From assembly GCF_032341995.1 (NCBI RefSeq), contig NZ_CP135439.1:2749501-2813500 (forward strand): a stretch of 64,000 nucleotides of DNA. Direction: 5' to 3'. Under the pieces are notes generated by a model. It was not told the DNA's origin, did no database searches, and saw nothing but the letters and a program-made list of their open reading frames with translations. This document shows, piece by piece, positions 8,289 to 61,708 of the stretch. Position numbers and translations under genes: made by a program. Position 1 is the first letter of the stretch. The number at the start of each line of letters is the position of its first letter. Source of the DNA: Domibacillus sp. DTU_2020_1001157_1_SI_ALB_TIR_016. Lineage in GTDB: Bacteria; Bacillota; Bacilli; Bacillales; Domibacillaceae.

Positions 8289-8305
8289 ACGCTCTTTCTT
8301 TATCC

Positions 8306-8803
8306 TTACCGGTTATCGACTGTTTCTGGATACAGGTCATGATTCATCATGCGGTACTCAGCCATTTTCTCGTATTTCGTGCCAGGCTTCCCGTAGTTCG
8401 TGTACGGGTCAATGGAAATCCCGCCACGCGGCGTGAATTTGCCCCATACTTCAATGTAGCGTGGATCCATAAGTTCAATAAGGTCATTCATGATAATGTT
8501 CATGCAGTCCTCATGAAAATCACCGTGATTGCGGAAGCTGAACAAGTACAGCTTCAACGATTTACTTTCGACCATTTTCACATCGGGAATGTAACTGATG
8601 TAAATAGTCGCAAAGTCCGGCTGACCCGTCATTGGGCAAAGCGACGTGAATTCCGGGCAGTTGAATTTTACAAAGTAATCACGGTTTTGATGTTTATTGT
8701 CAAACGTCTCAAGAACGGATGGGTCATAGTCAAATATATAGTTTGTTCCCTGATTGCCAAGCAGCGTAATGTCTTTTAGTTCTTCTTCTTTTCGTCCAGC
8801 CAT
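8306..8803 (-). CDS. queF: NADPH-dependent 7-cyano-7-deazaguanine reductase
   Basis: QueF reduces preQ0 to preQ1 in queuosine tRNA modification. The 165-residue protein is the usual length of the short (YkvM-type) enzyme. It shows the active-site Cys in [18 protein letters not shown] and the [13 protein letters not shown] segment with the substrate-binding Glu and His. The 3' third of the gene comes from the integrated element (identical residues, silent DNA changes relative to 2689-2906), so the gene was repaired rather than broken by insertion. Start ATG follows AAGGAGG. It is divergent from the thioredoxin-like gene. Confidence 0.95.
8430..8523. other. Candidate attachment-site core, right copy
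   Basis: A 94-base block inside queF identical to 2813-2906. The chromosomal half of queF lies on its right, and element-derived queF 3' sequence lies on its left. Confidence 0.65.
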
Positions 8804-9257: not shown

Positions 9258-9833
9258 GTGACATTATTAACAAACATTTTAGCGTTTAACGAAACGTTTG
9301 TAGAAAACAAAGAATATGAAAAATTTGAGACAACAAAGTTCCCGGATAAGCGTGTCGTCATTTTAACATGTATGGATACACGTCTTGTCGAACTTGTAAC
9401 TGAAGCCATGAATTTTAAAAACGGAGATGTAAAAATCGTTCGTAACGCCGGCGCGATCGTCAACCATCCGTTTGGATCGATTATGCGAAGCCTGCTGGTT
9501 GCAGTGTACCAGCTTCAAGCGGATGAAGTATTGGTCGTAGGGCATCATGATTGCGGTATGGGTTCTCTTTCAAGCGATGTCATTATCGATGCAATGAAGG
9601 AACGGGGCATCCAGCAGGAAGTAGTCGATACACTTCGCAACGCTGGAATTGAAGTAGATAAATGGCTGAGCGGCTTTAACAGCGTAGAAGAAAGTGTCGA
9701 GCACAGCGTGAAAATGATTAAGTCTCATCCATTGATGGTGAATTCTATTCCTGTACACGGGCTTGTTATTGACCCTTCAACGGGCAAATTAGATCTTGTG
9801 GTTGATGGATACAAAAAAGAAGAGGCTCTTTAA
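9258..9833 (+). CDS. Beta-class carbonic anhydrase
   Basis: The enzyme interconverts CO2 and bicarbonate. The 191-residue protein has the zinc ligands and dyad of beta-carbonic anhydrases: CMDTRL near residue 40 and GHHDCGM near residue 97. The GTG start at 9258 sits nine bases after AAAGGAG; the frame is open further upstream through the thioredoxin-like gene, but that is a shadow. The stop codon lies inside the terminator hairpin at 9821-9843. It is probably a short operon with the thioredoxin-like gene. Confidence 0.9.
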   Translation: MTLLTNILAFNETFVENKEYEKFETTKFPDKRVVILTCMDTRLVELVTEAMNFKNGDVKIVRNAGAIVNHPFGSIMRSLLVAVYQLQADEVLVVGHHDCGMGSLSSDVIIDAMKERGIQQEVVDTLRNAGIEVDKWLSGFNSVEESVEHSVKMIKSHPLMVNSIPVHGLVIDPSTGKLDLVVDGYKKEEAL

Positions 9834-9843
9834 AAGAGCCTCT
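9821..9843. terminator. Terminator hairpin, left copy flanking repeat A
   Basis: Perfect 10-bp stem AGAGGCTCTT / AAGAGCCTCT overlapping the carbonic anhydrase stop. An A-run lies on its outer (left) side, but there is no T-run on its inner side. Its near-twin is at 9994-10016. Confidence 0.7.
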
Positions 9844-9993
9844 GAGAGTGTAGGCAAAGTAAGAAAGCAGGCTGATTGAAAACGTCTGTCTTTCCAGAAA
9901 TGCCGCCGGCTGGGAAGCGGCGTGACCTTTTTAGGATCATGAGCATTCACAGCTGGCAAGTGACGCCGAAAGCGGGCGTTTGCGGGCAGCCTG
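9844..9993. repeat. Dispersed foldable repeat, copy A
   Basis: About 150 bases closely similar to 32796-32945 and 45436-45583. Shared parts are GTGTAGRCAAARTAAG at the left, CAGGCTGATTGAAAAC, CGCCGCCGRCTG, TCATGAGCATTC, GGCAAGTGACGCCGAAA and CGTTTGCGGGCAGCC at the right. Its ends are imperfectly complementary (CAGGCTG.. with ..CAGCCTG), and GTGACC/GGATCAT form an inner stem. No coding capacity is seen. It lies between two near-identical terminator hairpins. Confidence 0.8.
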
Positions 9994-10016
9994 AGCGGCT
10001 CTTTAAAAGAGCCGCT
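9994..10016. terminator. Terminator hairpin, right copy flanking repeat A
   Basis: Perfect stem AGCGGCTCTT / AAGAGCCGCT followed by six T residues. It equals the 9821-9843 hairpin except for one base pair changed on both arms (A-T to C-G), a compensatory difference. On the minus strand it lies next to the adhB stop. Confidence 0.75.
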
Positions 10017-10019
10017 TTT

Positions 10020-11156
10020 TTATGGCTTTAACACTACTTTTATACAGTCATCCGTTTTTGTATCAAACAATTCATAGCCTTTTTTTGCTTGATCGAGCGG
10101 CAAAATGTGCGTCACGACATCACCCGGATCCACTTTTCCTTCCGCAATCAGCTTATATAAATAAGGCATGTAGTGAATAACAGGAGCCTGGCCGCCCCGA
10201 ATATTAACGTTGCGCTGAAAAATGTCACCGAGCGGAAAAGCGTTATAGATTCCACCGTATGCACCTGTTATTTGAATCGTACCGCCTTTGCGGACAGCCT
10301 GGCTGGCTGCCACAAGAGCACTTAAAGCACCGCCCTGAAGCTTCATGCCCACTGCAAGAAATTCGATTGGTGTCATTTTGGCATCCATTCCAACACAATC
10401 CATGACTACCTCTGCCCCGCCGCCTGTCATTTCTTTCAGATGATTGCCAATGTTTTGCTCGTCTTCAAAGTTCACAATTTCTACTTTATTTGTTTTCTTC
10501 GCATGCTCAAGCCGATATCTCACATAATCAGCCGCAATGACACGTTTTGCTCCTTTTAACCAGGCAAATTTTTGAGCAAGCAGTCCAACTGGGCCGCAGC
10601 CGAAAATAATCGCTGTATCTCCCTCTTTTAAGCCGGAATTGTCGACGGTCCAGTAAGCCGTTGAAGCGGCGTCCGCCAGCAGGACGAGTTTCTCATCCTC
10701 CACCTCACTGTCTTCTGGAATTTTAAACGGTGTAAAATTCCCATACGGAACACGCATATATTCGGCCTGCCCGCCAGGATATCCCCCTGTCGTGCCGCTA
10801 TATCCAAAATAAGCGCCCATCTCGTCATTATCATTAGAATTGTCACACTGACTTTCCAGGTCATGCTTACAAAACCAGCACTCTCCGCAGCTAATGTTAA
10901 ACGGAACAATGACACGGTCTCCTTTTTTTACTTTTGTAACAGCCGGACCGACTTCTTCTACACTCCCCATCGGTTCATGCCCGATAATATAATCTTGTTG
11001 AAGATTCGGAATCATGCCATGAATCAAATGCAGATCGGACCCGCAAATAGCTGTTAATGTAGGCTTGACGATAATATCGTCCGGTTTTTGAATGCTGGGT
11101 GCTTCTACTTCTTTTACAACCACATTTTTCACACCTTGATATGTGACGGCTTTCAT
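10020..11156 (-). CDS. adhB: Zinc-dependent alcohol dehydrogenase, AdhB-like
   Basis: This medium-chain dehydrogenase of 378 residues belongs to the formaldehyde-dehydrogenase-like group. It has the catalytic zinc site CGSDLHLIHG and GHEPMG, structural zinc cysteines in CGECWFCKHDLESQC, and an NAD-binding GCGPVG. The ATG at 11156 is six to eight bases behind GGAGGAG; an upstream GTG is less likely. Flanking coat-F-like genes on both sides reproduce the Bacillus subtilis yraG-yraF-adhB-yraE-yraD set, so expression during sporulation is likely. It shares a leftward operon with the two genes to its right. Confidence 0.85.
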   Translation of the reverse strand: MKAVTYQGVKNVVVKEVEAPSIQKPDDIIVKPTLTAICGSDLHLIHGMIPNLQQDYIIGHEPMGSVEEVGPAVTKVKKGDRVIVPFNISCGECWFCKHDLESQCDNSNDNDEMGAYFGYSGTTGGYPGGQAEYMRVPYGNFTPFKIPEDSEVEDEKLVLLADAASTAYWTVDNSGLKEGDTAIIFGCGPVGLLAQKFAWLKGAKRVIAADYVRYRLEHAKKTNKVEIVNFEDEQNIGNHLKEMTGGGAEVVMDCVGMDAKMTPIEFLAVGMKLQGGALSALVAASQAVRKGGTIQITGAYGGIYNAFPLGDIFQRNVNIRGGQAPVIHYMPYLYKLIAEGKVDPGDVVTHILPLDQAKKGYELFDTKTDDCIKVVLKP

Positions 11157-18037: not shown

Positions 18038-18059
18038 AAGCACCCTTTTTGGGGTGCTT
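18038..18059. terminator. Hairpin, left copy flanking repeat D
   Basis: Stem AAGCACCC / GGGTGCTT with an A-run on its outer side. It lies upstream of the DUF1206 gene, where no terminator is needed. Its near-copy at 18372-18392 is the expected terminator of the GGDEF gene. Confidence 0.6.
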
Positions 18060-18371
18060 CAGTGTGTAGACAAGGTCTTTCGCTTTTAAAAAAGAGCCGA
18101 TAAGTGGTGTTGAAGATCCATAAGCAAGAACGGAATAGAAAGTTCTCTTTTTTAAGCAGAAACATACGGCCTTATTAACTCCATACTACCTTGTCGCAAG
18201 CCACTTGACGGTGGGAGGGCAGCGCAGACTCCTATGGGACTAGCGGGCAGCTGAGACCGGTAGATCCGTCAGGCGAAGCCCGGGCTTAGCGCCTGCCCCA
18301 TGGAAAGCGGAGCTGCCCGGACGCCGCCGATCCATCCCATTCATGTGCACGGCCCGGTCATCCATATAATG
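18060..18371. repeat. Repeat D, related insertion between duplicated hairpins
   Basis: This 312-base non-coding stretch opens with TGTGTAGACAAGG, the same left motif as repeats A-C. Its second half (about 18205-18330) contains GACTCCTATGGGACTAGCGG and TGGAAAGCGGAGCTGCCCGG, which resembles the widespread Bacillales GACTCCTGCGGGA-type structured repeat. No ORF is supported. It lies between two hairpin copies. Confidence 0.6.
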
Positions 18372-18392
18372 AAGCACCCTTTTTAGGTGCTT
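18372..18392 (-). terminator. Terminator of the GAF-GGDEF gene, right copy flanking repeat D
   Basis: Stem AAGCACC / GGTGCTT just beyond the stop codon at 18395; near-identical to the hairpin at 18038-18059. Confidence 0.65.
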
Positions 18393-32504: not shown

Positions 32505-32770
32505 ACCGTTTCCCCATCTCTCTTTGTATCATTGCTTCACGTGCTTTACAAACGGTTTAAGGTGCCGCTCCCGGGTGAGGCGTATTTTGCTTTTTAGCCA
32601 GCCGTCCTTTACATTCGCCTTCCTTATAACAAGCAGGTCCTATTTCATGGAAATTGTTATTTAATTCTTCACATCCAATTCTTTAGGATTAATATATTAG
32701 TCCCGTTTATGCACGTTTCTCTACCTTATACCCCCTTTTCAGTTATTTAGTACTAATAAACACAAAAAAA

Positions 32771-32794
32771 GACACCCGGAATGTACCAGGTGTC
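32771..32794. terminator. Terminator hairpin, left copy flanking repeat B
   Basis: GACACCCGG / CCAGGTGTC stem, followed by seven T residues on the minus strand. It is the functional terminator side for leftward transcription from the YciI gene. Its twin is at 32946-32969. Confidence 0.75.
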
Positions 32795-32795
32795 T

Positions 32796-32945
32796 AAAAG
32801 TGTAGACAAAGTAAGAAGCAGGCTGATTGAAAACGTCTGCTCTTCAAGGAACGCCGCCGGCTGGGAAGCGGAGTGACCTTCTGTGGGTCATGAGCATTCA
32901 CAGCCGGCAAGTGACGCCGAAAGCGGGCGTTTGTCAACAGCCGGA
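32796..32945. repeat. Dispersed foldable repeat, copy B
   Basis: It begins AGTGTAGACAAAGTAAG and ends CAACAGCCGGAG, and is closely similar to copies A and C over its whole length. It has no ORF. It separates two copies of the same hairpin. Confidence 0.8.
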
Positions 32946-32969
32946 GACACCCGGAATGTGCCAGGTGTC
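32946..32969. terminator. Terminator hairpin, right copy flanking repeat B
   Basis: Same 24-base hairpin as 32771-32794 with a single loop-region change (A to G). It lies nine bases beyond the YciI gene stop. On the minus strand it lacks a T-run, which is kept only by the outer copy. Confidence 0.65.
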
Positions 32970-32977
32970 TCTCTCTT

Positions 32978-45410: not shown

Positions 45411-45435
45411 ATTCACCGGCTTTGAGCCGGTGAAT
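45411..45435. terminator. Terminator hairpin at the left of repeat C
   Basis: Stem ATTCACCGGCT / AGCCGGTGAAT, with an A-run to its left that reads as a T-run on the minus strand. It probably terminates the cobalamin operon after reading through repeat C. Unlike copies A and B, no second copy is found at the right end of the repeat. Confidence 0.7.
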
Positions 45436-56551: not shown

Positions 56552-56584
56552 GTCACACCACCTATCCGCGCAGGTTTTTGGTGC

Positions 56585-56752
56585 ATGAGCAGGGCAGGTC
56601 TCCTGGCTTATGTTCATCACACCCGGCGCCTTCCCGTGCTTTTGCACAGTGGCAAGTCTGCCGGATGCTCCCATTTACAGTGGCGGGACCGCGCTGGACT
56701 TTCACCAGCTTCCCTTTTCAGAATCCGCACAAAGCGGCTTCACCTTGCTCAT
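56585..56752 (-). promoter_or_regulatory. Cobalamin (B12) riboswitch
   Basis: The minus strand carries the B12 box GCCAGGAGACCTGCC and the conserved core GAAAAGGGAAGC..GGTGAAAGTCC..GCGGTCCCGCCACTGTAA. The closing P1 stem ATGAGCA / TGCTCAT defines the ends. It should shut off the 13-gene corrinoid operon when adenosylcobalamin is present. Confidence 0.95.
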
Positions 56753-56895
56753 TTCCTATATGTTTTCCGTCATCGCTCATTATACCCGAAGAAGAGTCGA
56801 AACTGAATACTTTTTGAATATTCCGTTTTGAAGAGTGAGATAAAGGTTTATTGTTTAAAATAAGTGGAAGAGAAGGAATAAAGGAGGCGGGCTCC

Positions 56896-61495: not shown

Positions 61496-61507
61496 CTAGT
61501 TAGTCTT

Positions 61508-61605
61508 CTTATCTCTCAGCTTTCGCTGCAAGAATTAGCACCGTGCCTGCTATAGGTCGGTTGCCGGGTGTCATAGGGCTTGTCCCTCTACCTGCTCTTG
61601 ATAAG
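61508..61605 (-). promoter_or_regulatory. SAM-I (S-box) riboswitch
   Basis: On the minus strand: P1 strand CTTATC, AAGAGCAGGTAGAGGGAC, CCCTATGACACCCGGCAACC, GGTGCTAATTCTTGCAG, and the closing GAGATAAG. All S-box conserved blocks are present. It points at the 170-residue unknown gene, not at the rightward nitrilase gene. Confidence 0.95.
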
Positions 61606-61708
61606 ATGTATGCAATTGTCCGTTTATTTGTTAAGGAGGATTATGACATGTTTCATTTTTCCTGTCAACCATGTTACAATTTTTAAAAAGACAACGGAGA
61701 TGAAAAAC

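Follow-up and report, generated by a model that had tools for sequence, protein, structure and literature searches.

Why should a short repeat lie between two near-identical copies of the same transcription terminator? The question is raised by a 64,000-nucleotide (nt) stretch of the genome of Domibacillus sp. DTU_2020_1001157_1_SI_ALB_TIR_016 (contig NZ_CP135439.1, positions 2,749,501 to 2,813,500), termed the window here and numbered from its first base, which contains a repeat of about 152 nt, element A (9843-9994, plus strand). The element is made up of a left terminal repeat (TGAGAGTGTAGGCAAAG), a structured body and a right terminal repeat (CGGGCAGCCTGA), and is flanked on both sides by copies of one terminator hairpin, at 9821-9843 (AGAGGCTCTTTAAAAGAGCCTCT) and 9994-10016 (AGCGGCTCTTTAAAAGAGCCGCT). 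Each hairpin is 23 nt long with a 3-nt loop, and the stems differ in one pair, A-T in the left copy and C-G in the right, which is altered on both arms. An A-run is found only outside the left hairpin and a T-run (10017-10021) only outside the right; judged by sequence, the left copy could terminate minus-strand transcripts and the right copy plus-strand transcripts. An earlier note on this DNA had described the identical loop and length, the single-pair difference and the outward placement of the A- and T-runs, all of which are confirmed in the letters, and had left the cause unnamed. The cause is the target-site duplication of a transposon: a branch of the IS1182 family of insertion sequences (ISs) makes a duplication that is defined by structure, and two sets of short elements, termed A and B, take advantage of it, one set having a conserved fold. 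Very probably these elements are non-autonomous and owe their movement to a DDE transposase of the IS1182 family, acting in trans, which targets terminator hairpins, with the whole hairpin being duplicated.

Hairpins around the short elements

The genome to which the window belongs (G000) contains about 60 short elements of sets A and B, of which element A contributes about 30 copies (35 matching stretches). Elements of set B are heterogeneous (192-582 nt as delimited for the flank test) and have an end motif in common with A; this motif, about TCAG-NN-TGTAGACAAA, matches full IS1182-family insertion sequences, and the right end of element A is diverged (TCAGGCTGTTGACAAAC or more degenerate). 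Both sets are short, lack a transposase, carry IS-like terminal repeats and duplicate their target, as is expected of miniature inverted-repeat transposable elements (MITEs). The flanks of 59 own-genome elements (30 A, 27 B-type and two very short A forms) were compared, excluding L043, L054 and L138, for which no right end was found, and the left-end-only or fragmentary places L095, L097, L147 and L148. Flanks of the same locus gave a median score of 19, whilst pairs taken across loci gave a mean of 6.5 (standard deviation 1.7, maximum 16), and 43 of the 59 elements scored above the 99.9th percentile of the cross-locus pairs. As flanks are alike within a locus and not between loci, the sequence duplicated around most elements is that of their own locus, and chance likeness of the flanking hairpins is excluded. 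By a cruder self-complement score, calibrated on 2,000 random windows, only 14 flanks on the left and 21 on the right (of 59 on each side) passed the 99th percentile; the hairpins show better by folding. For copies of element A in relatives, flank likeness was above every cross pair in 13/20. The earlier note had proposed that copies be collected genome-wide and in relatives, and in both collections most have flanks that match within their own locus. Two A forms of about 44 nt in the own genome (L145 and L146, at C2:593000-594000 and C2:1855200-1856100) have kept both ends and adjoin hairpins, and neither passed the duplication test.

It could also be supposed that two terminators of convergent genes, either pre-existing or independently evolved, flank the repeat, or that the hairpins belong to the repeat itself. 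Convergent genes, between which two terminators could be expected, surround 23 of the 54 loci that have a gene on each side (neighbouring genes being taken as mechanical open frames), but the remaining 31 loci are in tandem arrangement, and the hairpins resemble each other within a locus but differ from one locus to the next. The 59-element comparison, in which flanks proved to be locus specific, leads us to reject the possibility that the repeat includes the hairpins. None of the 54 classifiable loci lies between divergent genes, and so the case that most copies lie away from terminators, which the earlier note had regarded as fatal to its proposal, is not what is found.

A pre-existing pair of terminators is further contradicted by the sites that lack an element. 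Ten of 20 prepared loci were queried in relatives, with both flanks read for 8/10 (none for L009 and L019). The 21 sites read comprise 12 that are plainly empty, six with element A, one with another element and two that are unexplained, and the plainly empty sites, spread over six loci, contain a single hairpin in 12/12 cases. Tandem hairpins that predate the insertion, the other outcome that would have told against the earlier note, are therefore absent from all of them, and a pair of terminators formed independently of the element is very improbable. The site in the window is occupied in G061, a genome of the same species; G008 and G010 lack the element and have one hairpin there, which supports the proposal of the earlier note that one terminator was doubled around the repeat. 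The single hairpin of G008 and G010 has C-G where the left copy of the window has A-T, which indicates that the both-arm change arose in the left copy after insertion. At the site of L006 in G010, a different element (end CAGACTGTAGACAAAT) sits in the same terminator. The site of L005 in G010 (L249) holds a stretch of 567 nt between its flanks, with a hairpin and T-run at both ends.

Full insertion sequences and the route of insertion

Full insertion sequences were reached by way of end-motif pairs lying 1-2 kilobases apart in other members of the genus. In L094, terminal inverted repeats (CAGACTGTAGACAAA at both ends) bound a transposase gene whose protein matches NF033551, the model of the IS1182 transposase, with 475 bits (cut-off 270); in L092 (terminal inverted repeats CAGCTTGTAGACAAAG and CAGACTGTAGACAAAG) the frame is interrupted, and its open piece matches with 360 bits against the same cut-off. 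L094 is arranged in the order A-run, ACCTTAGGAATCATCCTAAGGT, IS, the same 22 nt again and T-run, which amounts to a 22-base pair (bp) duplication of a whole hairpin, and around the full IS copy of L092 a hairpin of 26-28 bp is duplicated. An IS30-family transposase was rejected as the driver because full elements with the same ends encode an IS1182 transposase; in the own genome, HTH_38 gave no more than two partial matches, of which one was above cut-off.

The duplication was then surveyed in named genomes scanned with the transposase, from which the best 80 of 197 relatives were retained as loci. Both flanks were available for 69/80, and 48/69 had a direct repeat score of at least 15 (control maximum 14.5); L150, L199 and L227 were removed from these, giving 45/69 loci with a duplicated complete hairpin of 18-42 bp, the duplication stopping at the hairpin base or close to it. 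The duplication of L220 measures 43 since its alignment extended into the end of the element. The outermost pair stands at the very ends of the duplication in 23/45, and in 33/45 it is no more than one base from either end. The hosts include Bacillus, Neobacillus, Cytobacillus, Lysinibacillus, Ureibacillus, Sporosarcina, Saccharibacillus, Exiguobacterium, Enterococcus (duplication in 7/10 loci) and Clostridia.

The target-site duplication is therefore structure-defined, and its length varies with that of the palindrome instead of being constant. For duplications of 18-42 bp that track the hairpin, the best explanation is strand transfer to the 5′ feet followed by gap repair: the IS1182-family transposase would attack the 5′ feet of an extruded cruciform, and repair of the gaps would leave a whole hairpin on each side of the element. 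Such a route would correspond to ‘pathway b’ as drawn by Wan et al. 2017 (PMC5678879). Alternatively, a transposase dimer might read the palindrome as ordinary double-stranded DNA and make staggered cuts at its ends, with no cruciform being formed. All of the sequence evidence for duplication is equally compatible with this, and many DDE enzymes work as dimers, but the stagger would need to range from about 18 to 42 bp following the hairpin base, which is hard for a rigid dimer, and there is no obvious common sequence among the listed hairpins as judged by eye without a motif test. We consider this alternative unlikely, and retain attack on the cruciform as the preferred route.

Several points weigh against transposition of this kind. 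The duplication test was failed by 16/59 own-genome elements and by 24/69 survey loci, perhaps because of decay, nesting, truncation or some other outcome; the query used for the survey favoured one branch, and genomes contributed several loci each; and two sites in G010, those of L004 (127 nt between flanks) and L005 (567 nt), do not fit the simple picture. The evidence for transposition is sequence comparison: this establishes a single hairpin when a site is empty and a double one when it is occupied, common end motifs, and a transposase in the full copies with the same duplication, and from it we infer attack on a cruciform and working double terminators. No match to the IS1182 transposase model was found in G000 itself, whereas G061 has five matches, one of them above cut-off, and the transposase is also present in other members of the genus, from which we infer mobilisation in trans. 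(G061 appears to be Domibacillus indicus, as L221, from the named D. indicus strain MSL 225.1.2, is identical to the G061 locus L111 over 2,987 bases.) An element of another IS1182 branch within the genus (L104, G002:C8:80660-82078, ends GCTGAAAAAGTC) has a 10-bp non-palindromic duplication, and the IS1182-family element ISPse1 is listed with a duplication of 4 bp in a table of PMC3281130. Taken together, L104 and ISPse1 make the duplication of hairpins a property of the branch and not of the whole family.

Long direct repeats are allowed for the IS1182 family in the ISfinder tables, and the duplication of inverted repeats by IS1630 was reportedly described by Calcutt et al. in 1999. In Mycoplasma fermentans, 4/7 complete copies of IS1630 (IS30 family) have duplications of 16, 23, 25 and 26 bp (PMC3317919). 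This is the nearest precedent, in that a whole inverted repeat is duplicated at variable length, here 18-42 bp; it differs in that the transposase belongs to the IS30 family there and to the IS1182 family here. IS1272/TnSha1 of staphylococci shares with the present elements both the transposase family and a preference for hairpins, several of which were shown to be terminators (PMC4923244; PMC5678879). IS1272 is described as attacking the 3′ feet, with loss of the hairpin (Wan et al. 2017), and hairpin deletion is likewise reported by Furi et al. 2016; the hairpin is replaced or deleted there with no duplication, whereas here the whole hairpin occurs twice, at 45/69 survey loci and, by the duplication test, at 43/59 own-genome elements. 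An annotated relative is ISEfa7 (IS1182-like, Enterococcus faecium), with 57% identity to the L102 transposase, which appears in PMC9041417 in connection with a composite structure; the enterococcal loci of the survey are not assigned to it.

Hairpin targeting by the IS1182 family and inverted-repeat duplication by another family were known before. In the literature searched, no earlier report of the combination on the present scale was found, nor was hairpin duplication by an IS1182-family element, save for the hypothetical pathway b (Wan et al. 2017), with prior notice in IS reviews or in the IS1630 paper being possible. The whole stem-loop duplication drawn as one branch of that model now has many natural examples, some of them with empty sites. 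One family is now seen to contain deleters of hairpins (IS1272, from the papers), duplicators of hairpins (the present branch) and ordinary duplicators (L104), and the rule that decides between these outcomes is testable.

The two terminator copies after insertion

Because the A-run remains on the outer side of the left copy and the T-run on the outer side of the right, each direction of transcription should keep a full terminator, which transcripts from either side would reach once past the element. If both directions do keep one, the element could live in terminators at little cost. The flanking hairpins have the attributes of intrinsic terminators, namely a stable hairpin and a T-run after the end of a gene; a T-run beyond the right copy (at least six T in a stretch of eight) was found at 35/54 loci, and is absent at some copies.

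Copies of equal age provide a natural means of measuring the decay of terminators. The stems were compared at 47 loci (455 stem pairs), with 12 of the 59 elements omitted for weak similarity, and 34 changed positions were found on each arm. Changes on both sides of a pair number nine, against 2.5 expected (4/20,000 shuffles as high) or 3.2 when shuffling was done inside loci (10/5,000 as high), and pairing was kept in 7/9 of these, spread over five loci. One-sided changes number 50, of which 29 break the pair in one copy. The statement of the earlier note that pairing has been kept since the doubling holds in part: it agrees with the excess of both-sided changes and is contradicted by the pairs that one-sided changes have broken. 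A both-sided change might also arise in one step, by template switching in the hairpin (quasi-palindrome correction), with no part played by selection on a working terminator. The few both-sided changes that keep pairing stand beside 29 one-sided changes that break a pair, and a single locus, L142 (own genome C2:3004000-3005300), has three both-arm changes at once, with pairing kept, together with one one-sided change; such template switching is quite possible, even though the tendency of the gene-facing copy to be the stronger points to some selection on termination.

This tendency is seen across the 54 loci, where hairpins that face an incoming gene have a median of -14.5 kcal/mol compared with -9.9 kcal/mol for the others (p = 2e-5). 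As convergent sites may not be equivalent to tandem ones from the outset, the fair test is the comparison within tandem loci, where the gene-facing copy was the stronger in 20/31 (p = 0.02). Better retention of the gene-facing copy is thus supported, and selection on termination is likely, if modest.

The fold of element A and further copies in the window

The body of element A contains a conserved fold, which in the window occupies approximately 9868-9994 on the plus strand (CAGGCTGA ... CAGCCTGA). With 35 copies in an alignment that was not structure-fitted, the consensus energy is -39.0 for the sense strand and -12.0 for the other strand, with a mean of -0.8 for column shuffles of the sense strand. 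In an alignment fitted to the model, both-sided changes are present in 16/34 pairs, with 107 cells compared with 40.6 in shuffles (0/500 as high); in an alignment of 20 copies that was left unfitted, and that had itself served to derive the structure, they are present in 10/34 pairs, with 35 cells compared with 11.1 (0/500 as high), and the number of pair types was less telling (24/500 shuffles). These shuffle tests ignore the relatedness of the copies. One helix has a G-U pair at its end, which is preserved in 33/34. In the repeat body, for which the earlier note had suggested a covariation test, both-sided changes thus exceed those in shuffles.

The model of the fold matches 40/249 sampled genomes of the order, in 23/105 genera; as at most 12 candidates were scored per genome, copy numbers of A in this sample are lower bounds. 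Amongst distant A-type copies, flank likeness was above every cross pair in 11/17. At three loci of G059 (L070, L078 and L086, around 1378-1750), the A body is found as a head-to-tail array of units of about 127 nt from which the usual left end is absent. Like element A, bacterial MITEs and the Bacillus cereus group's bcr repeats are short, non-coding and multicopy, and share an end motif with an IS; element A has in addition a strand-specific conserved fold, and in 56 IS loci the model of this fold gave no convincing match (best E 0.54). The same search leaves unsupported the idea that element A is an internally deleted IS copy.

When compared with Rfam, the only resource to which the fold was compared and with no literature search made for it, element A in the window had no family match, and no family was reached at threshold in the other loci tested: L001 had only matches below the gathering scores, the best being suhB with 24 bits against 41, and four distant A loci had none at E values up to 0.1. 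A role for A as a sense 3′-end element of the upstream gene was also considered and is unsupported, since full-length copies in tandem loci run seven with and seven against the direction of the genes, which argues against a function in the sense 3′ untranslated region. More tentatively, A may be a mobile RNA gene that nests in terminators, that is, a conserved structured RNA, specific to one strand, about 125 nt long and occurring in at least 23 genera of the order, which rides on IS1182-type ends, spares termination, and may act in its own transposition or in a host function; we regard this as possible but doubtful. Were it so, the RNA could hold the ends of the element together or recruit the transposase, or it could serve the host.

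The earlier note had reported that the same design recurs at 32771-32969 and 18038-18392 of the window, and both places stand up to inspection, the former as a copy of element A and the latter as a different, longer repeat. The second A element (L021, 32794-32945, plus strand) lies between hairpins at 32770-32795 and 32945-32970 that differ at one base, in the predicted loop. The longer repeat is a B-type element (18061-18371, plus strand) with the left terminal repeat AGTGTGTAGACAAGG and no recognised right terminal repeat; its hairpins, at 18038-18059 (22 nt) and 18372-18392 (21 nt), differ by one base change and one missing base. A third copy of A (L024, 45435-45584, plus strand) has a recognisable hairpin on its left side only (45411-45434). 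Elsewhere in the window, 2688-2906 and 8305-8523 form a pair of direct repeats of 219 nt each that are 97% identical, and the minus strand carries two riboswitches identified with Rfam, a cobalamin riboswitch at 56576-56762 and an S-adenosylmethionine (SAM) riboswitch at 61506-61607.
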